Source: Raoultibacter phocaeensis (lineage in GTDB: Bacteria > Actinomycetota > Coriobacteriia > Coriobacteriales > Eggerthellaceae). Taken from it: DNA of 64,000 nucleotides. Where the stretch lies: positions 1,178,001 to 1,242,000 of the forward strand of contig NZ_CABDUX010000002.1 in assembly GCF_901411515.1 (NCBI RefSeq), given 5' to 3'. A model generated the notes under the pieces. It was not told the origin of the DNA. It searched no databases and worked only from the letters and a program-made list of their open reading frames with translations. Each line of letters begins with the position of its first letter. The first letter of the stretch is position 1. Made by a program: the position numbers and the translations under genes. Of the stretch, positions 12,062-64,000 are shown in pieces.

Positions 12062-14293
12062 TCAGCCCCCTTTCACTTCATCGGACTCGCGAAACGCGAG
12101 CCGCATTTCCCGCCCGAGGGCGCGGTAGCGCTCGCTCGCAAGCTCGGGATCCTGCTTTAGAATCGCACGCGCATCTCCATGGGCGGCCTCGATGATCTTT
12201 CCATCGCGCACGACGTTCACGAGCTTGAGCGCCGATGCGCCGTGTTGGCGGTTGCCGAGTATGTCGCCTTCGCGTCGAAGCGATAGATCGTAGCTCGCAA
12301 GCTCGAACCCGTCTTCGGTCTTCTCCATAGCCGCAAGCCGATCGAGCGCAGGGGGCGCCTTCGATCCCGAGACGAGGTACACCTCGCCCGGCTCCGTACC
12401 GCGGCCGACGCGCCCGCGCAGCTGGTGGAGTTGGGAGAGCCCGAAGCGCTCGGCGTCTTCGATGATCATCACCGAGGCGTTCGGCACGTCCACGCCGACC
12501 TCGATCACGGTCGTCGCGACGAGCACCTGGCACTCCCCCGTCCTGAAACGGTCCATGACCTCCTGCTTCTCGGCTCCGCTCATCTTGCCGTGCAAGAGAT
12601 CGACCCGGTAGTCCACAAATGTCTTCTCCTGCAGAAACCGCGCCTCCTGCACGGCCGCCTTCGGGTCGTCTTCGATATCGGCTTCGTCTTCGATGCTGAT
12701 GACCGCGTACTCGTACTCGTCGGACTCGAGATCGTTTTCGCGGCGCGCCGTGCGCTCGCCCTCCGACGAAGGATGCGGCTTGCCCACAAGCGGGCATACC
12801 ACGTAAACCTGACGGCCTGCCGCGAGCGCTTCGAGAGCCGCATCGTATGCACGGCCCCGCTCGTTTCTCGAGAGCACCTTCGTCGTATTGCCCGCGGTGT
12901 TGAGCGGCCTCGAGGTGATGTAGGAGAGCGTCAGGCTTCCGTACAGCGCAAGCGCGAGCGTGCGCGGTATGGGGGTCGCCGTCATGAAAAGCGCATCGGG
13001 CGCCTCGCCTTTCGCAAGCAGAGCCGCACGCTGATCGACGCCGAAGCGCTGCTGCTCGTCGATGACCGCAAGCGTAAGGTTCGAAAACCGCACGTCGTCC
13101 TCTAAAAGCGCATGGGTGCCGAACACGACGTCGATCGTACCCGCGCAAACGCGCTCGAGAATAGCCTCCCGCTCGGCTGGTGCGGTGGAGCCTGTGAGCA
13201 CCTCCCAGGTGATGTTCGCCGCGTCGAAGAGCGCGCCGAGCTTTTCGGCGTATTGGCGTGCGAGTACTTCGGTGGGAGCCATCATGGCCGCCTGGGTACC
13301 CGTATCCGCCGCCGCCGCAAGGGCGAACGCCGCAACGGCTGTTTTACCGGTGCCCACATCGCCTAGAAGCATGTGGTTCGCCGTGTGATCCGACGCCAGC
13401 GCGCACAAGATGTCCTCACGGGCGCGCACCTGCTCGTCGGTCAGGGTGAAGGGCAGGTGCTCGTCGAGCGCACGCATGCGTGCGCCGTCGACCGTATGGG
13501 CCGTCGCGCGCCTGCCTGCGCAGCGTTTCATCTCATCGGTCATGAGATGAAGCTCGAGCAGCAGCACCTCTTCGTACACGAGCCGCCGCCGTGCCATGGC
13601 CACCTCGTCCATGGTTGTCGGAAAATGAATGGCCGAAAGGGCGCTTGCCCGGCTCGGCAGACGGTATTTCGAACGTAGGTCGATGGGAAGCGGATCGAAG
13701 GCTCCACGGCAGAGGGCGAGCGCATTTTCCACAAGCCGGCGCATCCACGCTGTCGAGAGCTTCTCGGTTGCGGGATGGACGGGAATGATGCGGCCCAGCC
13801 GCTCGTCGAACGAATCGTCCGCCTTTTCGATGAAAGGGTTCACCATGCGCTTGAAGCCGTAGTTGAACTCGAGCTTGCCCGCTACAGCCACCCGGTCCCC
13901 CTGTTTGTACTGGTCCATGAGCCACGGCTGGCGAAAGCACGTGATCATGAGCACGCCCGATCGATCGACGAGCGCTATCTCGACAAGCGTGAAACGCGGC
14001 TTCGGCCGCTTGAGCTTGATCTCGTGGACCTCGCCCACGATCGTCACCATCTCCCCGATGGGGGCCCTGGCAACCTGTTCGATACGCGACATGTCGATGT
14101 AGCGGCGGGGAAAGTGCGTAAGAAGCCCCCGCACCGTTCGTATGCCGAGCTTCGCAAGCGCGTTCGCCCGTGCAGGACTCACGAGCCGCACGCGGCCCAC
14201 CGGCTCATCGAGAGCCAAGGTAGCGGCAAGGCGGTCGAAGGATTGCTCCTTCGCCGCCTTGCCCGATGAAGATGTCACAGCACCTGTACTCAA
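12062..14293 (-). CDS. recG: ATP-dependent DNA helicase RecG
   Basis: Branch-migration helicase that remodels stalled forks and recombination intermediates. The 743 residues hold an N-terminal wedge domain with the OB-fold region (about 60-170), Walker A GDVGTGKT, a DEQQ motif where many RecG proteins have DEQH (AVIDEQQRFGV), TATPIPRT (motif III), and the C-terminal motifs QLRGRVGRG. An acidic insert (ENDLESDEYEYAVISIEDE) lies between helicase lobes. It lies 18 bases after the fakA stop. Confidence 0.94.
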   Translation of the reverse strand: MSTGAVTSSSGKAAKEQSFDRLAATLALDEPVGRVRLVSPARANALAKLGIRTVRGLLTHFPRRYIDMSRIEQVARAPIGEMVTIVGEVHEIKLKRPKPRFTLVEIALVDRSGVLMITCFRQPWLMDQYKQGDRVAVAGKLEFNYGFKRMVNPFIEKADDSFDERLGRIIPVHPATEKLSTAWMRRLVENALALCRGAFDPLPIDLRSKYRLPSRASALSAIHFPTTMDEVAMARRRLVYEEVLLLELHLMTDEMKRCAGRRATAHTVDGARMRALDEHLPFTLTDEQVRAREDILCALASDHTANHMLLGDVGTGKTAVAAFALAAAADTGTQAAMMAPTEVLARQYAEKLGALFDAANITWEVLTGSTAPAEREAILERVCAGTIDVVFGTHALLEDDVRFSNLTLAVIDEQQRFGVDQRAALLAKGEAPDALFMTATPIPRTLALALYGSLTLSYITSRPLNTAGNTTKVLSRNERGRAYDAALEALAAGRQVYVVCPLVGKPHPSSEGERTARRENDLESDEYEYAVISIEDEADIEDDPKAAVQEARFLQEKTFVDYRVDLLHGKMSGAEKQEVMDRFRTGECQVLVATTVIEVGVDVPNASVMIIEDAERFGLSQLHQLRGRVGRGTEPGEVYLVSGSKAPPALDRLAAMEKTEDGFELASYDLSLRREGDILGNRQHGASALKLVNVVRDGKIIEAAHGDARAILKQDPELASERYRALGREMRLAFRESDEVKGG

Positions 14294-14311
14294 ACGGCTC
14301 GTTTCCGCTGC

Positions 14312-15946
14312 CTACTCGACCGACATTACGATCGGGTACAACGGCTGCTCGCCCCGGTGCGAATCGATTTCGAGATCCTCGTACTTCTCTTCGATATCGG
14401 CGATGAGCGCGTCGAACGCGGCGTCATCCATGTCTTCGCCGGCAAGGATCGTGAGCGTATCCGCATCATCGGCTTCCATGGCTTCGAGCAGCTTCATGAC
14501 GACCTCTTCGGTCGACGAGCCGACCGCTTCGATGGAACCGTCGGCGATGCCGATGGTGTCGCCCTCTTTGATCGGGTTGTCGTGCGCGTCCTTCGCATCT
14601 TTTATGGCGACGGTGACCTCGCCTGTTCTCACGTCCTCGTACGCCTCGGTCATCGATTCGACGTTATCTTCGAGGCTTGCCGTCTCGTCGAATCCAAACA
14701 GAGCCGAGAACGCCTGGGGTACGCTTGTCGTGGGCACGACCGCGCACGGCACGTCGGACAATCCAGCGCAGCTTTGAGCCGCCATGATGATGTTCTTGTT
14801 GTTCGGCAGGATGATGACTGCATCGGCGTTCACCTTGTTCACCGCGTCGAGCAGGTCCTTCGTGGAGGGGTTCATCGTCTGGCCTCCGGAAACGACCACA
14901 TCGACGCCCAGGCTCTCGAGGATCTTCGCATTGCCCGTGCCCGGTGCCACGGCAACGAATCCTATCGGCTTATGCTCCGCCTCGGCCTCTTCGGCGGCGA
15001 GCCCCGCAGCGCGCGCCTCGCTCTGCAGCTGCATGTTGTGGATATGCACTTCCGAGACCTGGCCGCGGTCGAGGAAGTACTTGAGCACCTGGTCAGGCGT
15101 GTTCGAGTGCACGTGCACCTTGAACTTCGGCGCCTCGCCGACGCACAGCTCGCAATCGCCCATCGTGGCGAGGAAATCGAGCGCTTCGTCTTTATCGAGC
15201 CTGTCGGAATCGACCAAGAACTCGTTGCAGTAGCGGTACTGCGAACCCTCCCAGTCGTTCACCTGCTCGATTTCGACTCGGGGAACCGCACCGCGCGCGA
15301 ACGCGAGCTCATCGACCATCGGACCCTCTTTGCCGATGAGCGCGGAAGCGAACGCGTCGAAGAGTATGGCGAGCCCGAACCCGCCCGCATCGACGACTCC
15401 GTTGTCCTTGAGGACCGGCAAAAGGTCGGGCGTGCGCTGCACCGAAGCGTACGCTTCGGACACGATGAACTCGAGGGCCTCGTCGACGGGAAGCTTCTTC
15501 TTGCGGGCTTTCTTCGCAGCAGCCGCACTGTCCTTGAGCACCGTGAGAATCGTGCCTTCGACCGGCTTGCGCACGGCCTGAAACGCCACTTCCGCCGAAT
15601 GCGAGAACGCCGCCTCGATGCCTTCAGTGGAAAGCTCCTCGAAGCCGGCGCTTCCCTCGCACAGACCGCGCAAAATTTGCGAGGTAATGACACCGGAATT
15701 GCCGCGTGCGCCCATGAGCGCGCCGGTTGTAATTGCCTTGCGAATTTCAGCGCCGCTCGCCCCGATGGGGAGCTTGGCGAGGTTATCGACCACCATCTCC
15801 ACCGTAAGCGACATGTTCGTACCGGTGTCGCCGTCGGGCACGGGAAAGACGTTGAGGCGGTTCACCTCCTCTTTTCGGTCGGCCAACGCCTTCGAAGCGA
15901 CCGCAATGGCGTTGAGGAGGTCGTTTACGGTGTATGAATCTGACAT
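14312..15946 (-). CDS. fakA: DAK2-domain fatty acid kinase, FakA-like
   Basis: A 544-residue protein. The N-terminal DAK2 kinase domain (about 1-205) carries the metal-binding motif PVPDGDTGTNM, and the C-terminal half is the FakA-type middle and DegV-like lobe. FakA phosphorylates fatty acids held by FakB so that PlsX/PlsY can use them; no FakB is in the window. ATG 15946 is preceded by AGGAG at 11 bases. The neighbour upstream is an Asp23 protein, the classic yloU-yloV pair. Confidence 0.9.
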   Translation of the reverse strand: MSDSYTVNDLLNAIAVASKALADRKEEVNRLNVFPVPDGDTGTNMSLTVEMVVDNLAKLPIGASGAEIRKAITTGALMGARGNSGVITSQILRGLCEGSAGFEELSTEGIEAAFSHSAEVAFQAVRKPVEGTILTVLKDSAAAAKKARKKKLPVDEALEFIVSEAYASVQRTPDLLPVLKDNGVVDAGGFGLAILFDAFASALIGKEGPMVDELAFARGAVPRVEIEQVNDWEGSQYRYCNEFLVDSDRLDKDEALDFLATMGDCELCVGEAPKFKVHVHSNTPDQVLKYFLDRGQVSEVHIHNMQLQSEARAAGLAAEEAEAEHKPIGFVAVAPGTGNAKILESLGVDVVVSGGQTMNPSTKDLLDAVNKVNADAVIILPNNKNIIMAAQSCAGLSDVPCAVVPTTSVPQAFSALFGFDETASLEDNVESMTEAYEDVRTGEVTVAIKDAKDAHDNPIKEGDTIGIADGSIEAVGSSTEEVVMKLLEAMEADDADTLTILAGEDMDDAAFDALIADIEEKYEDLEIDSHRGEQPLYPIVMSVE

Positions 15947-56585: not shown

Positions 56586-57773
56586 CTAAAGATTATCGTG
56601 TCCGCCAGCTCGTGCATCAGTCTTGACGAATGCAAGCAGCGCAGCACCGATGAAGCCGAGTACCATAACGGTCAACCCCATGGCAAGCCAACCGGCCGAA
56701 AGCACGAGCGGCATGAGCGCCGTACCGAGGAACTGACCGAGGCTTTGCACCAAAATGAGCAGACCCATAGCCACCGGCATCACGGCTTCGTTGCCGACCG
56801 CGCGCGGGTACAGGGTCAGAAACATCGTTGGCGCCCCAAGACCTACCAGACCCATGACAACCGCCGCGATCCACATGATAGGCCCTGTGGTAGTAAGAAG
56901 CGCGCAAGCGCACGGCCCCATCGCAAGCATGGCGACAACGGAAAGCAATCGCACCTTGCCCGTTTTGTCGGCAAGCATGCCGAACGCCGGCGAGCTCACG
57001 ATGGCGATAAGCATGGGCAGCGTACTTGCGAACCCAGCCTGGCTAGCATCCATTCCCTGACTTTGGAGAAATGTCGGCGAGAATGACAGCATGGAGAGAA
57101 GCACCATGTTGAACATGAGGAAACTCCCAAGCACGAGCAACACATTCGGCTTGGCAAGAATGCGATAGTCGGGCTTGTCTGTGGAGCCTTTCAGCGAGCT
57201 CGCCTGGGCAACCGCTTCGAAAAACGTGCCCGTCGTCGGCCTGACCAAGAAAAACAGTGCGAGTCCCGCAGCAACGGCAACGCCCGCCATGAAAAACCAC
57301 ACGCCTCGAAAGCCGAGCGTCTCGAAAAGAGCGGGAGTAACCACGCCTCCGAAGAACGATCCGAGCGAGAACCACAACGCCCAGACACCCATCGCGAACC
57401 CTATCTTATCGGGCGCGATATAGCGTTGGATGGCAAGCGGAGCAGCTACCCCGCAGAACACGAGCGCAACGCCTTCGATGGCCCGAGAGACGATGAGCAT
57501 GCTGCCGCTGGTTGCGAAAGCACCGACCACAGTGCCGACAGCGATAACGGCCACGGCGGCGAGCATCATGTTCTTCGGACCGAATCTCCGCGCAAGAGCA
57601 CCGGTAGGAAGCGCTAGAAAGATGCCTGCAAAGGTGAAGATGGACATAAGCCACGACGCCGACCCCACATCCATCGAAAACTCATCCATGATCGCCGGCA
57701 TGATGGACGGAACTTTGAACTGGCCCAGAGCAATCGCTATACCCACCAGCACGATCACAATGGCAACAAGCAC
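56586..57773 (-). CDS. MFS transporter, start region cut off by an insertion sequence
   Basis: A 395-residue major facilitator with about twelve helices (VPSIMPAIMDEF, LPTGALARRFGPK as the loop-2 motif). Joining the two sides of the IS at its 8-bp duplication gives a frame that starts GTG at 58951, with GAGGAGG five bases before it, and reads about 11 codons before the present GTG. The IS therefore removed the native start and ribosome site. Expression from the internal GTG 57773 is possible but has no good ribosome site. Substrate unknown. Confidence 0.8.
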   Translation of the reverse strand: MLVAIVIVLVGIAIALGQFKVPSIMPAIMDEFSMDVGSASWLMSIFTFAGIFLALPTGALARRFGPKNMMLAAVAVIAVGTVVGAFATSGSMLIVSRAIEGVALVFCGVAAPLAIQRYIAPDKIGFAMGVWALWFSLGSFFGGVVTPALFETLGFRGVWFFMAGVAVAAGLALFFLVRPTTGTFFEAVAQASSLKGSTDKPDYRILAKPNVLLVLGSFLMFNMVLLSMLSFSPTFLQSQGMDASQAGFASTLPMLIAIVSSPAFGMLADKTGKVRLLSVVAMLAMGPCACALLTTTGPIMWIAAVVMGLVGLGAPTMFLTLYPRAVGNEAVMPVAMGLLILVQSLGQFLGTALMPLVLSAGWLAMGLTVMVLGFIGAALLAFVKTDARAGGHDNL

Positions 57774-57781
57774 ATGGTTTT

Positions 57782-58918
57782 GGCTGTGTTAGACCACTGT
57801 TGACAAGAACACTTGTACCAAAAAGGCTCTCCAACTATACTGAAAGTTATCAGACGACCAGTAAGGAGAAGAGCCTATGCTTGAGATTCTACACCAACTT
57901 TTGCCCCAGCTAACCCGCGCTGAGAAAATCGAGATGCTCGCCCACCTAAAAGAAGCCATTGCCGAAGAGCTGATCGTTAGCTCTGAAGGCAACGGACCTT
58001 CCGTTTGTCCGCACTGCGGCTGTGCGCGCTTCACCAAGAAGGGCCATGGCCGCTCAAGAGAACAACGATGGCTTTGCGGCGGCTGTGCGCGGACCTTTTC
58101 CGGTGCGACCAAAGGACTGCTGGCAAACTCGAAGCTCAGCGGAGGGGCGTGGATGAGCTTTGCCGCATGCATGGTGGATGCATTGAGTCTTCGGGAGTCT
58201 GCCAAGCGTTGCAATACCTGCCTTTCCACCGCCTGGTTCATGCGCCACCGCCTTTGTGAGGTGATGGCGAAAAGACTCATGCCTTTTCGTGTCGGGAAAG
58301 GGTCAACCTGCCAGATCGATGAAACCATAGTCAATGAGAATCTCTCGGGGAACTGGACCAGATCAGGGTCTGTTTCGCTACCGAGAAAACCCCATAAGCG
58401 GGGGAACGCCATACATGTTTCGGGGTCGTCCAGGGAAAGGATCAGCATCTTAACCGGCATCAGTGACCGGGGAGACTGCTTCTGCGAGGTGTGCTGTCGG
58501 GGCAAATCGAGCATCGAAGATATCGAGGCGCTCCTAAAGGGCAAGGTCGAAAAAGGGGCCATCGTATCAAGTGACTGGGATGCAGCTTACCCCAAAGCCT
58601 TGGCATCGATCGGTGCGGGGCATAGGCGTTATTGCACATCATCGGGTAAGGGGTATAAGATCAACATGGTCAATGCTCTCCATTCACGCTTGAGGGATTT
58701 CCTATTCCCGTTCAAAGGTGTTTCCACAAGGCGCCTTAAACATTACCTTGACTGGTTTTGCTACGTTGAGCAATTCAGGAAAAGCGATGCTGACCGTCGT
58801 GAGGTGCTGTACTCAAATGCCATAAGCGGAACATACGAGACGACCAGAAGGAACTATCCTTCAACTCCGTTTCCCTTCGGAGAGTACTGGAATATGTCAA
58901 CAGTGGTCTAACACAGCC
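57782..58918. mobile_element. IS1595-family insertion sequence
   Basis: A 1137-bp element. It has perfect 24-bp inverted ends (GGCTGTGTTAGACCACTG...) and one transposase gene. It is flanked by an 8-bp direct repeat ATGGTTTT (57774-57781 and 58919-58926), the target duplication expected for this family. The perfect ends suggest a recent insertion. It lies in the first codons of an MFS gene. Confidence 0.93.
57877..58911 (+). CDS. IS1595/ISXO2-like transposase
   Basis: A 344-residue transposase. A zinc ribbon (CPHC 44-47, CGGC 67-70) leads to the catalytic core CQIDET (D148), VSSDWDAAYPKAL (D233) and VNALHSRLRDFL with the C-terminal GVSTRRLKHYLDWF motif. AAGGAG lies nine bases before ATG 57877. 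The frame appears intact, so the element may be active. Confidence 0.93.
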   Translation: MLEILHQLLPQLTRAEKIEMLAHLKEAIAEELIVSSEGNGPSVCPHCGCARFTKKGHGRSREQRWLCGGCARTFSGATKGLLANSKLSGGAWMSFAACMVDALSLRESAKRCNTCLSTAWFMRHRLCEVMAKRLMPFRVGKGSTCQIDETIVNENLSGNWTRSGSVSLPRKPHKRGNAIHVSGSSRERISILTGISDRGDCFCEVCCRGKSSIEDIEALLKGKVEKGAIVSSDWDAAYPKALASIGAGHRRYCTSSGKGYKINMVNALHSRLRDFLFPFKGVSTRRLKHYLDWFCYVEQFRKSDADRREVLYSNAISGTYETTRRNYPSTPFPFGEYWNMSTVV

Positions 58919-58951
58919 ATGGTTTTGGTACGGTTTCCGGTCGTCGTTCAC
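58919..58951 (-). pseudogene. Severed 5' end of the MFS gene
   Basis: GTG 58951 with GAGGAGG at 58957-58963 starts V-N-D-D-R-K-P-Y-Q-N-H and runs into the target duplication. It is in frame with the MFS body on the other side of the IS once the element is removed. Confidence 0.75.
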
Positions 58952-59196: not shown

Positions 59197-60630
59197 TTAC
59201 AATCCGAGAACCCCCGCGATGAACGGAACCCAGAGCACCATGCACACGCAGAAGATGACTGCAGGGATAACGCCTGCCTTGAACATATCGCCGAAGGTGT
59301 AGTACCCCTCGCCATACGTGACAATGAGCGTGGGGTTGACCGGAAGCAAGAAGTTGCCGGCTACGATGAAGGCAAGCAGCATGGTCGGGATGGCGGGAGA
59401 CACGCCGAGTCCGACGCAGATGCCGATGAGGATCGGGAGGAACAGGCTGATGATGGCAGCACCAACCGGCGCGATCGTGTGGAGCAGGTAGACGAACACG
59501 ACGGTGACGAGCAAGAACAGCGTGAAGTCAAGCGAAGTCACGCCGCTGTTCATGAACACGTTCGTGATGAACTGATCGGCACCGGTCGACGAGAAGATAC
59601 CGCCGATGGAGAGCACCGAGCCGACCATAAGGATGATGCTCCACGGAACCTGAGCCGAGAACTCTTCCCACGTGAGCAGGTTGATGCCCGGAATGAACAT
59701 GATGCCGAGGCCGATGATGGCGACCGTGGTCACGTTGAGGATCGGAATCCAGCTGCCGAGGATCCACAGGATGGGAAGCGCGAGGATCATGATGAGCGCG
59801 CGGATTTCGAACGAACTGGGCTTACCCGCATCGGCTGCAGCTTGACGCAGCGTATCGAACGCGCTCTTGTCGATCGGCTCAGGCTTGAGGATCTTCACGA
59901 TCGAGAACCAGCATAGCGGAATGCAGACGATAGCGATCGGAAGGCCGACGATGATCCAGTTCAAGAAGCTGATGGTCTGCCCGGTGAGCTCCTGCATGAG
60001 ACCCATGGCCACCACGTTGAACGAACTACCGGCAGGCGTGACGACACCGCCGATGACCGCACCGATCGGGATGGCGATCATCATGCACTTGCCGAGGTTC
60101 GACTTACCCGGCTGAGCGTTAGCCGCCCGCAGGACAACGTAGGAGATGCCCATGAACAGGACTGCTGCCGGAACGTCGGACATGATGGTCGAAACGAGCG
60201 CAGTACCGATCATGAACGCCAAGATGAGCTTCTCCGAGCTCTCGCCGGTAAACTTGAATATCTTGTTCACCAAACGAACGCCCCACTCGGTCTTCAACAG
60301 CAAGGCCGGGAGCGAAAAGATCGCGATAACGTAGAACACGACCGATGCGCTGAATCCCCCGAACGCAGTCTTATAGGTGGCCGCCCCGATCACGACCGCA
60401 ACCACGAGCGCGAGGATGCCCGTGATACCGACAGGAAACGTCCCGCATACCCACAACGACACGGCGAACAGAAGCGTCGCGATGGCCATGATGCCCTCGC
60501 GGGAGAGCTCAGGCGTCGCCGGTACGAACATCGCCACAACGAGAACGAGCACTGCAAGCACGATGCCGATGCCGCGTTTGTTTAAAAACCCCTCTTTACT
60601 AAAAAACTTGGTTACCATTTCTTGTGCCAT
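59197..60630 (-). CDS. DASS-family (SLC13) anion/dicarboxylate transporter
   Basis: A 477-residue carrier with about eleven helices. The two family signature loops are visible: MSDVPAAVLF/TPAGSSFNVVAMG and LLPVNPTLIVTYGEGYYTFGD, which bind Na+ and substrate. Members import sulfate, di- or tricarboxylates. AGGAGG lies seven bases before ATG 60630. Encoded downstream of the molybdoenzyme and probably part of the same pathway. Confidence 0.9.
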   Translation of the reverse strand: MAQEMVTKFFSKEGFLNKRGIGIVLAVLVLVVAMFVPATPELSREGIMAIATLLFAVSLWVCGTFPVGITGILALVVAVVIGAATYKTAFGGFSASVVFYVIAIFSLPALLLKTEWGVRLVNKIFKFTGESSEKLILAFMIGTALVSTIMSDVPAAVLFMGISYVVLRAANAQPGKSNLGKCMMIAIPIGAVIGGVVTPAGSSFNVVAMGLMQELTGQTISFLNWIIVGLPIAIVCIPLCWFSIVKILKPEPIDKSAFDTLRQAAADAGKPSSFEIRALIMILALPILWILGSWIPILNVTTVAIIGLGIMFIPGINLLTWEEFSAQVPWSIILMVGSVLSIGGIFSSTGADQFITNVFMNSGVTSLDFTLFLLVTVVFVYLLHTIAPVGAAIISLFLPILIGICVGLGVSPAIPTMLLAFIVAGNFLLPVNPTLIVTYGEGYYTFGDMFKAGVIPAVIFCVCMVLWVPFIAGVLGL

Positions 60631-60785
60631 TTCACTTCCTCCTCAGAAAGCTCTTGTCGGCATATTTCCCCTGCAGGCATCCGGCACCTGGCTCGGGCAG
60701 GCACCGGACGCCGTTGCATTTTCCATCAGGGGCGAATCGGAGCAAACCGCAGAAAGACCGCGGCGCCCGCGAATTCGCCCGAGCA

Positions 60786-61610
60786 TCACCCGATCTGGTT
60801 CGCGAACAGCTCGACGGGCCCGACGTTCACGTCCCTTTCGGTCGCGTCGGCCTCGACGGCGCGGGTGAGGTAGCCGTCGGCCTCGACGTACACGCGGTAG
60901 GGCTCGGCGGCCACCTGGTCGAACCAGAAGTCGCCGAACTCGTCGGTCTCGAGGGAGGCGACGCTGCCGCTCGAGAGGCCCTCGAGCGTGCCCCTCGCGC
61001 CGGAGACGACCTCGTCGGCCTCGAGGTCCACGGCGATCCCCGCCACGAAGCGCCTGGGCTTGTTGAGGTAGTAGACGCGGGGTCCGTCGGATGCGCGGCC
61101 GGGGTCGATGCACTCGGCGGCCGCGATCTCGGCGGCGAAGTCCCCCTCGTCGCCGAAGCGGATCGCGCCGTGGGGGCAGACGTCCACGCAGTGCGGCAGC
61201 TCGCCCGCGTCCACGAGGTGCGCGCACCCCGTGCACTTCTGCGGCAGGCCGAGCTCCTCGTTGTAGAAGATCGCCCCGTAGGGGCAGGCCTCCACGAGCT
61301 CGCGCATGCCCTTCGCCTTCCCGGGGTCCACGATCACGAGGCCGTCTTCCCGGCGGTACACCGCTTCGGGCGCCGCCTCCATGCAGGGCGCGCTCGCGCA
61401 GTGGTTGCACATGCGCAGGGTGTAGGACACCTTGACCTTCGGCACGCTGCCGCGCACCTCCTCGTCGATGCGGCACCAGAAATGGCCGGTGTCGGGCTGG
61501 GGCGCGGCGTACGGCGCCCAGTCGTTGTCGACGTGCTCGTCCTTGCAGGCGATCTGGCAGTTGCGGCAGCCGTTGCACTTCGCGTGGTCGTATACGAATA
61601 CCTTGCCCAT
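60786..61610 (-). CDS. Iron-sulfur subunit of a transhydroxylase/catechol-dehydroxylase-like enzyme
   Basis: A 274-residue subunit. Cysteine motifs for three or four 4Fe-4S clusters lie in the first 170 residues (CNGCRNCQIAC, CNHCASAPC, CPYG, CTGC, CVDVCPHG). The last ~90 residues form a beta-sandwich of the carboxypeptidase-regulatory/CnaB type (YYLNKPRRFVAGIAVDLEA, ETDEFGDFWFD), like the small subunit of pyrogallol transhydroxylase. Codons are almost all G/C-ended and use AGG and GGG, unlike the neighbours, which suggests recombination with a GC-richer source. ATG 61610 has AAGGAG, 2 bases after the large subunit. Confidence 0.88.
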   Translation of the reverse strand: MGKVFVYDHAKCNGCRNCQIACKDEHVDNDWAPYAAPQPDTGHFWCRIDEEVRGSVPKVKVSYTLRMCNHCASAPCMEAAPEAVYRREDGLVIVDPGKAKGMRELVEACPYGAIFYNEELGLPQKCTGCAHLVDAGELPHCVDVCPHGAIRFGDEGDFAAEIAAAECIDPGRASDGPRVYYLNKPRRFVAGIAVDLEADEVVSGARGTLEGLSSGSVASLETDEFGDFWFDQVAAEPYRVYVEADGYLTRAVEADATERDVNVGPVELFANQIG

Positions 61611-61612
61611 GA

Positions 61613-64000
61613 TTACGCTCCTTCCACGATGCGCGACGTTGCGACAAGCCCGCAATCGGGATCGTAATCCCGCCCGAAGGCTTCGGGGTACTGCTCGGCC
61701 AGCTGAAACACGTCAACTTTCTCGACATTGACGAGGAATCCGCTCGTCACCTCTCCGAACGCATGCTCCGAAGTGGTCGCATACGGTGCGATGAGGTTGT
61801 TCGCTCCCCCACGATCAAGGCCGCCGCGGCCGAGCACGGCCGAATCAACGCGCGATCCATGATCTTGGTACACGACGCTCGGCATAATGCGCTCGGTCAC
61901 GCGCACGCCGCCGAGAACCGCGCCGCGCTCGTTGTACAGCTTCACGATGTCGCCCGATTCGAGACCGAGCAGGCCCGCATCAATCGGATTCACCCATACC
62001 GGTTCGTACTTGTAGCCGTCGGGTCCGGTTACCTTCACGTACTCTTCCATCTCTCGGAACCAGGTGACGTCGTCGAGGTTTGCGTGTACGCGCCACCGCG
62101 GGTGGTTCGACACGAGCAGGAACGGATACTCGCGTCCGCGCTCCAGGTACTGGCGCTCCTGATGGCCCGCACCCTCGTCGATCCAATGCGGAACCGGGCC
62201 GCGTTCCTTGTCGTCGGGGAACATGCTCGCGAGCGTGGTCGAGTAGTACTCGAGCTTGCCCGATGGCGTCTGCAGCGGATGACCCTCGGGATCGTTGTAG
62301 AACTCGCTTAAACCTGCGGGCATGTCCTCCCAGTCCTCGATGGTCGGGAACGGATAGTACTGCTTCTCTTTGAACTCCTCGAACGTCATCTTTTTGGCCG
62401 CACCGGTGTTCTCGAAGCCCGCCTGAATGTACTCTTCGCAGGTCTTGCCGCCCATGTAGCGGTCGTAGAGGTTCTCGTAGATGCCGCCGAACTTCTCAAG
62501 CGCCTTCGCCACTTCGCCGACGGCCTCCATATCGGACTTGGATTCGAGACGCGGTTTGATGGCCTGGCGCTCGAAGTACACGAGGTTCCACTGGCCGTTG
62601 TCGGAGTCGGTGCCGATATCCTCGGTTTCGAACTTCGTGTTCGTAGGCAGGATGATATCGGCGAAATTGCAATCGTTCTCCATCCACGGATGCTGGATGA
62701 TGATGAATTCGATCGACTCGTGGCGCAGCGCTTCCTGCATCTCGTTGCCGCCGTTCCAGCACGTCTCCCAACACGGAGTATCCGACCAGATCATATGCAG
62801 GCGCTCGTTTCCTTCGAGCGGGAAGGTGAAGGGCCCGGTGAACTGGTCCTCGCGTGGGAAACCCGCTCCAATGTGCCCGTACCACGAAACCGGAGGATTC
62901 ATGATGGCCTCGGGGATCATGGTTTTGGGGATGAAGCTCTCGGGAAAGCTGCGGTACCAGCCGCGGTACGCGGGGCTGCAATCGGGAATTTCAGTCGAGG
63001 GCGGCAGCGGCGTGACCGACTGCATGCCGTAGAGCGTCCACTCGATGAACTTGAACTGGTTCGCACCCGGCTTGCCGACACCCTGCATGCCTAAAAGCGC
63101 CACTTCGAGGCGTGCGGGCTCGTGGGCGTAGCACGACCTGATGAACGAACCGCCGTTGCAATGCGCGATCGACACGGCGTGCTTGGCCCAGTAGCGGGCG
63201 AACGCCTTGATCGTATACGACGGGATGCCGCAGATCTTCTCGGCCCACTTCGGGGTCTTCGGCACGCCGTCTTCGCCGCCGAGCACGTAGTAGCGGAAGT
63301 GGTCGAAGCCGATTGCATGCGTATCGAGGTACTCTTTGTCGTACGTTTCTTCGGTGATCCACGTGTAGGCGATGGCCAGCTGGAAGGCCGCATCGGTGTT
63401 GGGCTTTACGGGTATCCATTTATCGGCGTGCACGGCGTTGGTGTAGTTCACGTCGGGCGAGATGTGGATCTGCTTGATACCGAGGTCGGTGAACCAGAAG
63501 CACAGACGGCTCGCAAGGTAGCCTCCCCATCCGAGCGGCGTCGTTTCCACATCGCAACCCCAGAACAGCACCGCATCGCCGTTTTCCGCGATATCCTTGA
63601 TCACGTTGTTCAGCAGCGATTGCTGGCCGAGCGGGTCCATGCCCCAGATGTGCTTGGCCCCCCAGTACCAGCCCTCCCAGCTGTCGGGCTGGCGCGTTTG
63701 CAGCGTATAGGATCCGATGAGGTCGAACATCCTGCTCTGGCAGCCGTGCGGCGCGTGAACAAACTTCGTCTCGCCGTGGCCGTCGAGTTCGCAGAGGATC
63801 GATGCGGGCCCGTACTCGTCATGGATTCGCTTGATCTCCTCGGCCGTGATGGCCGCCGCTTCGTCCCACGAGATGCGCACATAGCCGCTCGTGCCGCGGT
63901 TTTGCGGGTTGCGCTCGCCATGCGGATCCCAATCGACGCGCTTCAGCGGATAGGGGATGCGGTTCTTGGAGTACACGCGCTTCTTATAGCACAAAGACAA
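61613..64000 (-). CDS. Molybdopterin enzyme large subunit, transhydroxylase/catechol dehydroxylase-like (5' end beyond window)
   Basis: The last 795 codons of a DMSO-reductase-superfamily protein. It resembles the alpha subunit of pyrogallol-phloroglucinol transhydroxylase (remembered sequence) in RIPYPLKR, DPHGERNPQ, PDSWEGWYWG, WAEKICGIP and NNLIAPYATT. The residues aligned with transhydroxylase His144, Asp174 and the molybdenum-ligand Ser175 are present (H75, D106, S107 of the visible part). This family includes gut catechol dehydroxylases of Eggerthella. Any signal peptide or N-terminal cluster is out of view. Substrate unknown. Confidence 0.88.
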   Translation of the reverse strand: MSLCYKKRVYSKNRIPYPLKRVDWDPHGERNPQNRGTSGYVRISWDEAAAITAEEIKRIHDEYGPASILCELDGHGETKFVHAPHGCQSRMFDLIGSYTLQTRQPDSWEGWYWGAKHIWGMDPLGQQSLLNNVIKDIAENGDAVLFWGCDVETTPLGWGGYLASRLCFWFTDLGIKQIHISPDVNYTNAVHADKWIPVKPNTDAAFQLAIAYTWITEETYDKEYLDTHAIGFDHFRYYVLGGEDGVPKTPKWAEKICGIPSYTIKAFARYWAKHAVSIAHCNGGSFIRSCYAHEPARLEVALLGMQGVGKPGANQFKFIEWTLYGMQSVTPLPPSTEIPDCSPAYRGWYRSFPESFIPKTMIPEAIMNPPVSWYGHIGAGFPREDQFTGPFTFPLEGNERLHMIWSDTPCWETCWNGGNEMQEALRHESIEFIIIQHPWMENDCNFADIILPTNTKFETEDIGTDSDNGQWNLVYFERQAIKPRLESKSDMEAVGEVAKALEKFGGIYENLYDRYMGGKTCEEYIQAGFENTGAAKKMTFEEFKEKQYYPFPTIEDWEDMPAGLSEFYNDPEGHPLQTPSGKLEYYSTTLASMFPDDKERGPVPHWIDEGAGHQERQYLERGREYPFLLVSNHPRWRVHANLDDVTWFREMEEYVKVTGPDGYKYEPVWVNPIDAGLLGLESGDIVKLYNERGAVLGGVRVTERIMPSVVYQDHGSRVDSAVLGRGGLDRGGANNLIAPYATTSEHAFGEVTSGFLVNVEKVDVFQLAEQYPEAFGRDYDPDCGLVATSRIVEGA

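Follow-up and report, generated by a model that had tools for sequence, protein, structure and literature searches.

In the human-gut-type bacterium Raoultibacter phocaeensis, at the end of a 64,000-nt stretch of its 3.86 Mb genome (G000:C2:1178001-1242000; hereafter the window), we identified an operon for a two-subunit molybdenum enzyme that, judged by its sequence and a structure model, is a member of the pyrogallol transhydroxylase superfamily. The operon consists of three real, co-directional genes on the minus strand. The first encodes the large subunit, a bis-molybdopterin guanine dinucleotide (bis-MGD) molybdenum protein of the transhydroxylase family (871 aa; 61613..64000), assigned from its open reading frame (ORF), PDB sequence match, tree position, residues and model. 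It is followed by an iron-sulfur (Fe-S) small subunit (274 aa; 60786..61610), assigned from a profile match, an AthS match and its cysteine pattern, and by a DASS-family anion carrier (477 aa; 59197..60630). The large-subunit ORF overruns the window end by 228 nt and has its start codon at window-equivalent 64228 (whole ORF 61613-64228, equal to L031:3614-6229). We propose, with a probability of about 0.5, that the enzyme is a cytoplasmic heterodimer that acts on an imported aromatic acid, by reductive dehydroxylation or by hydroxyl transfer.

In a PDB sequence search, the large subunit matched AthL of Pelobacter acidigallici (PDB 4v4c) at 403 bits and 34% identity, followed by dimethyl sulfoxide (DMSO) reductase at 217 bits and acetylene hydratase at 46 bits; the best solved relative of the small subunit is AthS (174 bits). 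We built a family tree of 94 sequences that took in Gordonibacter-type dehydroxylases and left out RhL and the Eggerthella-type Dadh, Hcdh and Cadh. The large subunit groups with AthL with full support in the Shimodaira-Hasegawa approximate likelihood ratio test (SH-aLRT 100), apart from nitrate reductase, and this AthL group is nested inside the serine-ligand DMSO/trimethylamine N-oxide (TMAO) reductase side of the superfamily. An AlphaFold2 model of the large subunit (pLDDT 88.5) places AthL at rank 1 in Foldseek (TM 0.82), and the VIA alignment to AthL reaches Z 37.7 over 795 residues. Since the Z score for MtsZ, a DMSO reductase-type enzyme, is only 1.7 lower (36.0), we did not base the family assignment on structure alone. 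H151, D182 and S183 align with AthL H144, D174 and S175 and are invariant in 91 of 91 aligned homologues, as is a WEGW motif. Like AthS, the small subunit carries 12 cysteines for three 4Fe-4S clusters, has a carboxypeptidase-regulatory-like beta domain at its C-terminus, and has lost the motif-3 CxxCxxC and the fourth motif-2 cysteine; DmsB retains the motif-3 cysteines. Tree, structure model, small-subunit cysteines and His/Asp/Ser set thus agree on kinship with AthL, and the sequence-only reading, which had proposed this kinship, holds up in both the tree and the alignment.

The window enzyme nevertheless falls in a deep clade of its own, sister to AthL, which comprises 81 of the tree sequences (Eggerthellaceae, Moorella, Sporomusa and Chloroflexota). 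In AthL, His144, Asp174 and Tyr404 have established catalytic roles. The segment around Tyr404 (FYFPGYA.GGISGD) is kept in AthL and in the rhizobial homologues that branch with it, whereas it is absent throughout the clade of the window enzyme. Because the whole clade lacks this segment, the enzyme appears to be no plain AthL, and the chemistry of AthL is not simply transferable to it. Plasmid homologues that we considered as further clade members were rejected, as the tree puts them in the AthL sub-branch. The large subunit has neither a twin-arginine (RR) motif nor an N-terminal Fe-S cysteine motif, so the enzyme is probably cytoplasmic and would need an importer. In summary of the comparison, the two systems have in common their branch, the His/Asp/Ser set, WEGW, a cytoplasmic location (predicted here), a large subunit without an Fe-S motif and a three-cluster small subunit with a C-terminal beta domain; the window enzyme differs in its clade, the missing Tyr404 segment, its DASS and 12-transmembrane (12-TM) LuxR partners and its many paralogues per genome.

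The sequence-only reading had also called the enzyme catechol-dehydroxylase-like, a label that joins two families. In our tree, Gordonibacter-type dehydroxylases cluster with acetylene hydratase and formate dehydrogenase; they are about 23% identical to the window enzyme, which therefore appears to be no catechol dehydroxylase; it lies outside the Eadh/acetylene hydratase clade, has no N-terminal Fe4S4 motif, and carries motifs that known catechol dehydroxylases lack. Enzymes of this type (Gp Hcdh, Gs Vadh, Eadh, Dodh) share with it their hosts, regulator type and build as cytoplasmic two-subunit molybdenum enzymes with transporters, but differ in their place on the acetylene hydratase side, their N-terminal Fe-S motif and their small subunit of about 110 aa. 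The eam-cluster enzymes, which gene context matches to Eadh (PMC12771579), are on the acetylene hydratase side as well; a first set of amidohydrolase matches (L149-L152) failed as the eam cluster and a second (L153-L155) matched. The Eggerthella-type Dadh, Hcdh and Cadh are set apart by their described features, namely a twin-arginine signal, a large catalytic subunit exported by twin-arginine translocation (1193 aa in E. lenta Hcdh) and a membrane anchor subunit (PMC11585353); the window enzyme has 871 aa, no RR motif and two subunits only. A published tree also puts dehydroxylases away from transhydroxylase (PMC7028382), and AthL has been used as their outgroup (PMC11887054).

Gut catechol dehydroxylases have been studied intensively, while the transhydroxylase branch appears in papers solely as an outgroup, and we found no description of any member of the 81-sequence clade in the literature. 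The clade is a separate, unassigned group of enzymes from these bacteria that probably act on ring hydroxyls. Of the 119 family genomes sampled, 42 have it, as do 17 of 48 genera, and the window genome has nine transhydroxylase-like paralogues. This genome holds about 85 molybdopterin oxidoreductase (PF00384) genes, at least 25 of which are full-length Gordonibacter-type dehydroxylases.

The carrier scores 128 bits against PF00939 (cut-off 27) and 188 bits against TIGR00785, just short of the 198.6 cut-off, and aligns with VcINDY at an E-value of about 1e-23; the earlier assignment to DASS is thereby borne out. By hidden Markov model and alignment it shares the DASS/Na_sulph_symp family with VcINDY/SLC13 carriers, which have SNT carboxylate-binding motifs. 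Both are replaced in the window carrier (SDV, APV) and throughout the molybdoenzyme-linked DASS set, which has a common motif of the type H/R-x-x-x-P-x-G-x-A. All 12 DASS genes of the window genome lie at most 4 kb from a transhydroxylase-like or dehydroxylase gene (binomial p about 3e-11 against a background of 13% of the genome within 6 kb of such a gene, an indicative value, as the genes are clustered and partly tandem-duplicated). On contig C12 of Gordonibacter sp. 28C (taken as NODE_2), the only LysR gene found, at 88 kb, adjoins genes for a dehydroxylase with its small subunit and for two carriers, DASS and CitMHS. The published cluster of Gs Vadh, whose substrate is 5-(3',4'-dihydroxyphenyl)valeric acid, has two subunits, two transporters and a LysR gene (PMC11887054). 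Because this gene content fits and the position agrees with locus tag C1878_02750, we infer that the 28C cluster is that of the phenolic-acid dehydroxylase Gs Vadh. Given this identity, the locus would lend independent support to DASS carriers serving phenolic acids and, together with the 12 of 12 association, makes an anionic aromatic substrate plausible for the window enzyme. The sequence-only reading had suggested such a substrate; the association and the probable Gs Vadh locus strengthen the suggestion, and the replaced SNT motifs count against it.

Near-orthologous loci add a second molybdoenzyme. G. pamelaeae and Gordonibacter sp. 28C are among the bacteria with a near-orthologous operon. 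A Gordonibacter-type dehydroxylase with an Fe-S partner of about 111 aa is adjacent in L032, L033, L035, L037, L038, L039 and L168-L172 (L169, L171 and L172 are the loci also counted as L032, L038 and L033), that is, in most such loci; more distant members with a dehydroxylase neighbour include L061, L063 (Chloroflexota) and L064. In the 52 loci that have 5 kb or more of sequence on either side, a dehydroxylase neighbour occurs 14 times, a DASS gene 21 times and a Xan_ur_permease gene 5 times. Mapped onto the tree, the link to Xan_ur_permease switches a single time, that to DASS 12 times and that to a dehydroxylase 18 times. We tentatively suggest a two-molybdoenzyme hydroxyl relay: two enzymes encoded together, one transhydroxylase-like and the other a catechol dehydroxylase, which belong to opposite sides of the bis-MGD superfamily, would act in sequence on one imported aromatic acid. 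Gut Coriobacteriia could use such a relay for anaerobic respiration, and the pair has relatives in Chloroflexota. Promoter-reporter screening of phenolic acids offers a direct route to the substrates, given that these enzymes occur together with dehydroxylases, DASS carriers and substrate-specific regulators.

The regulator of the window operon lies just upstream of the enzyme genes and divergent to them, beyond the window (L031:6368-7858, 496 aa, PF00196). It has a long hydrophobic N-terminal part, with 12 TM helices judged from the sequence and not by a predictor, and a C-terminal LuxR-type (GerE) helix-turn-helix (HTH). Regulators of this 12-TM LuxR type (DadR/HcdR) are proven inducers of catechol dehydroxylases (PMC9734109). 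A promoter scan of the intergenic region detected no sigma-70 site; the repeats there are not numerous enough to call an operator. Next to other transhydroxylase-like genes with DASS, a single ORF (L084:13006-14271, similar in L070, L080, L092, L095 and L104) combines a LysR HTH, a LysR substrate-binding domain and a C-terminal LuxR (GerE) domain.

In the mechanism we propose, the DASS carrier would import a polyhydroxylated aromatic acid, which an MFS protein would formerly also have handled, and the divergent regulator would sense the substrate and turn the operon on. At a Ser-ligated molybdenum centre, with His151 and Asp182 as putative acid/base residues, a ring hydroxyl would be reductively removed or shifted, and electrons would run through the three-cluster Fe-S subunit. 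Where a catechol dehydroxylase is adjacent, it probably performs a further step on the same compound. We infer from this context an aromatic substrate with a carboxylate charge, regulation by the 12-TM LuxR protein, a cytoplasmic location, molybdenum-dependent ring-hydroxyl chemistry and a reductive direction. The last is favoured over an oxidative one by analogy, because those molybdoenzymes of these bacteria that share its regulator type and have been tested proved to be reductases (PMC9734109, PMC11887054).

Several observations weigh against this reading. The Tyr404 segment is missing and both SNT motifs are replaced, as described above, and a relative, the resorcinol hydroxylase RhL, works oxidatively (PMC10100899). 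No dehydroxylase lies beside the window copy; the four closest dehydroxylases (63-66%) are elsewhere in the window genome. Finally, partners vary between subclades (DASS, tandem Xan_ur_permease, MFS and old-yellow-enzyme-type reductases): one sister subclade is linked to Xan_ur_permease genes in tandem, and MR_MLE or old-yellow-enzyme-type genes accompany others. Since the partners differ in this way, the clade as a whole may use a wider range of substrates than phenols.

These points feed several alternatives. An enzyme of the resorcinol hydroxylase type (RhL/RhS of Azoarcus anaerobius, a denitrifier) would use water to hydroxylate a meta-dihydroxylated aromatic acid, with electrons leaving via the Fe-S subunit and thus in the reverse redox direction. 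RhL is described as Ser-coordinated, cytoplasmic and grouped with PgtL (PMC10100899), a kinship known here from literature description and not from sequence comparison; the absence of Tyr404 fits an enzyme that is no plain AthL, and neighbouring catechol dehydroxylases could use up the electrons or the product. Against the reductase precedent among Eggerthellaceae, we consider this oxidative scheme unlikely. A non-phenolic substrate, such as a purine-like heterocycle, an alicyclic or another organic anion, seems less likely again. The loss of the SNT motifs would suit it, as would the MR_MLE enolase-family genes near one subclade and the two Xan_ur_permease genes that always follow in another (L055, L060, L076, L086, L091, L098, L131), which point to a nucleobase or another heterocycle as a possible substrate there. 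These links, however, belong to other subclades, whereas every close relative with a readable downstream region has a DASS gene, and in the majority of them a catechol dehydroxylase is a neighbour. A role for the enzyme as a true pyrogallol-phloroglucinol transhydroxylase that supplies phloroglucinol degradation is improbable despite its family, His/Asp/Ser set and small-subunit architecture: identity to AthL is modest, the Tyr404 segment kept in the AthL sub-branch is lost clade-wide, uncharged pyrogallol needs no DASS carrier, and nine paralogues in one genome argue for many substrates. An S- or N-oxide (DMSO/TMAO) reductase, which the shared Ser-ligand branch and the next-best DMSO reductase matches might suggest, is very improbable given the full-support grouping with AthL, the probable cytoplasmic location with an AthS-type small subunit, and the lack of the DSWEGW motif and an H151 equivalent in DorA and TorA.

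The sequence-only reading gave the order of DASS, Fe-S and large-subunit genes correctly and left out that the operon extends beyond an insertion sequence to an MFS gene that is now interrupted. This MFS transporter gene was the last of the ancestral operon, since L035, L038 and R. timonensis (L167) all have an MFS gene immediately after DASS. In the window, the gene (56586..57773, minus strand) has its 5' end cut off: a 1137-bp IS1595-family element (57782..58918, plus strand) splits it after about 12 codons. The element has perfect 24-bp terminal inverted repeats (57782-57805 and 58895-58918), an 8-bp target duplication (ATGGTTTT, 57774-57781 and 58919-58926) and a 344-aa transposase ORF with a family match (57877..58911, plus strand). 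The genome contains eight full-length copies, identical or nearly so (100% as rounded), plus one cut copy that ends contig C2; the near-identity of the eight indicates that the insertion is recent. In the orthologous R. timonensis operon (L167:8081-10608), about 0.9 kb is gone across the junction of the large and small subunits, with an ambiguous base at the join. The large-subunit gene there is without its 3' end and the small-subunit gene without its 5' end, which may reflect gene loss or an assembly error.

We also compared the window operon with a paralogous locus 533 kb away (L128, G000:C2:1.773 Mb). The two small-subunit genes have 99-100% DNA identity over nearly their full length (one 100-nt bin: 90%), while the large-subunit genes mostly range from 66 to 93% per 100-nt bin and their proteins are 81% identical. 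This pattern indicates a gene-conversion tract confined to the small subunit. Since the small-subunit genes are near-identical while the large-subunit genes diverge, the comparison suggests that the electron-transfer subunits are interchangeable and that specificity resides in the large subunit. The L128 locus is flanked by two DASS genes in inverted orientation that encode an identical protein (L128:4333-5745 and 13541-14953).

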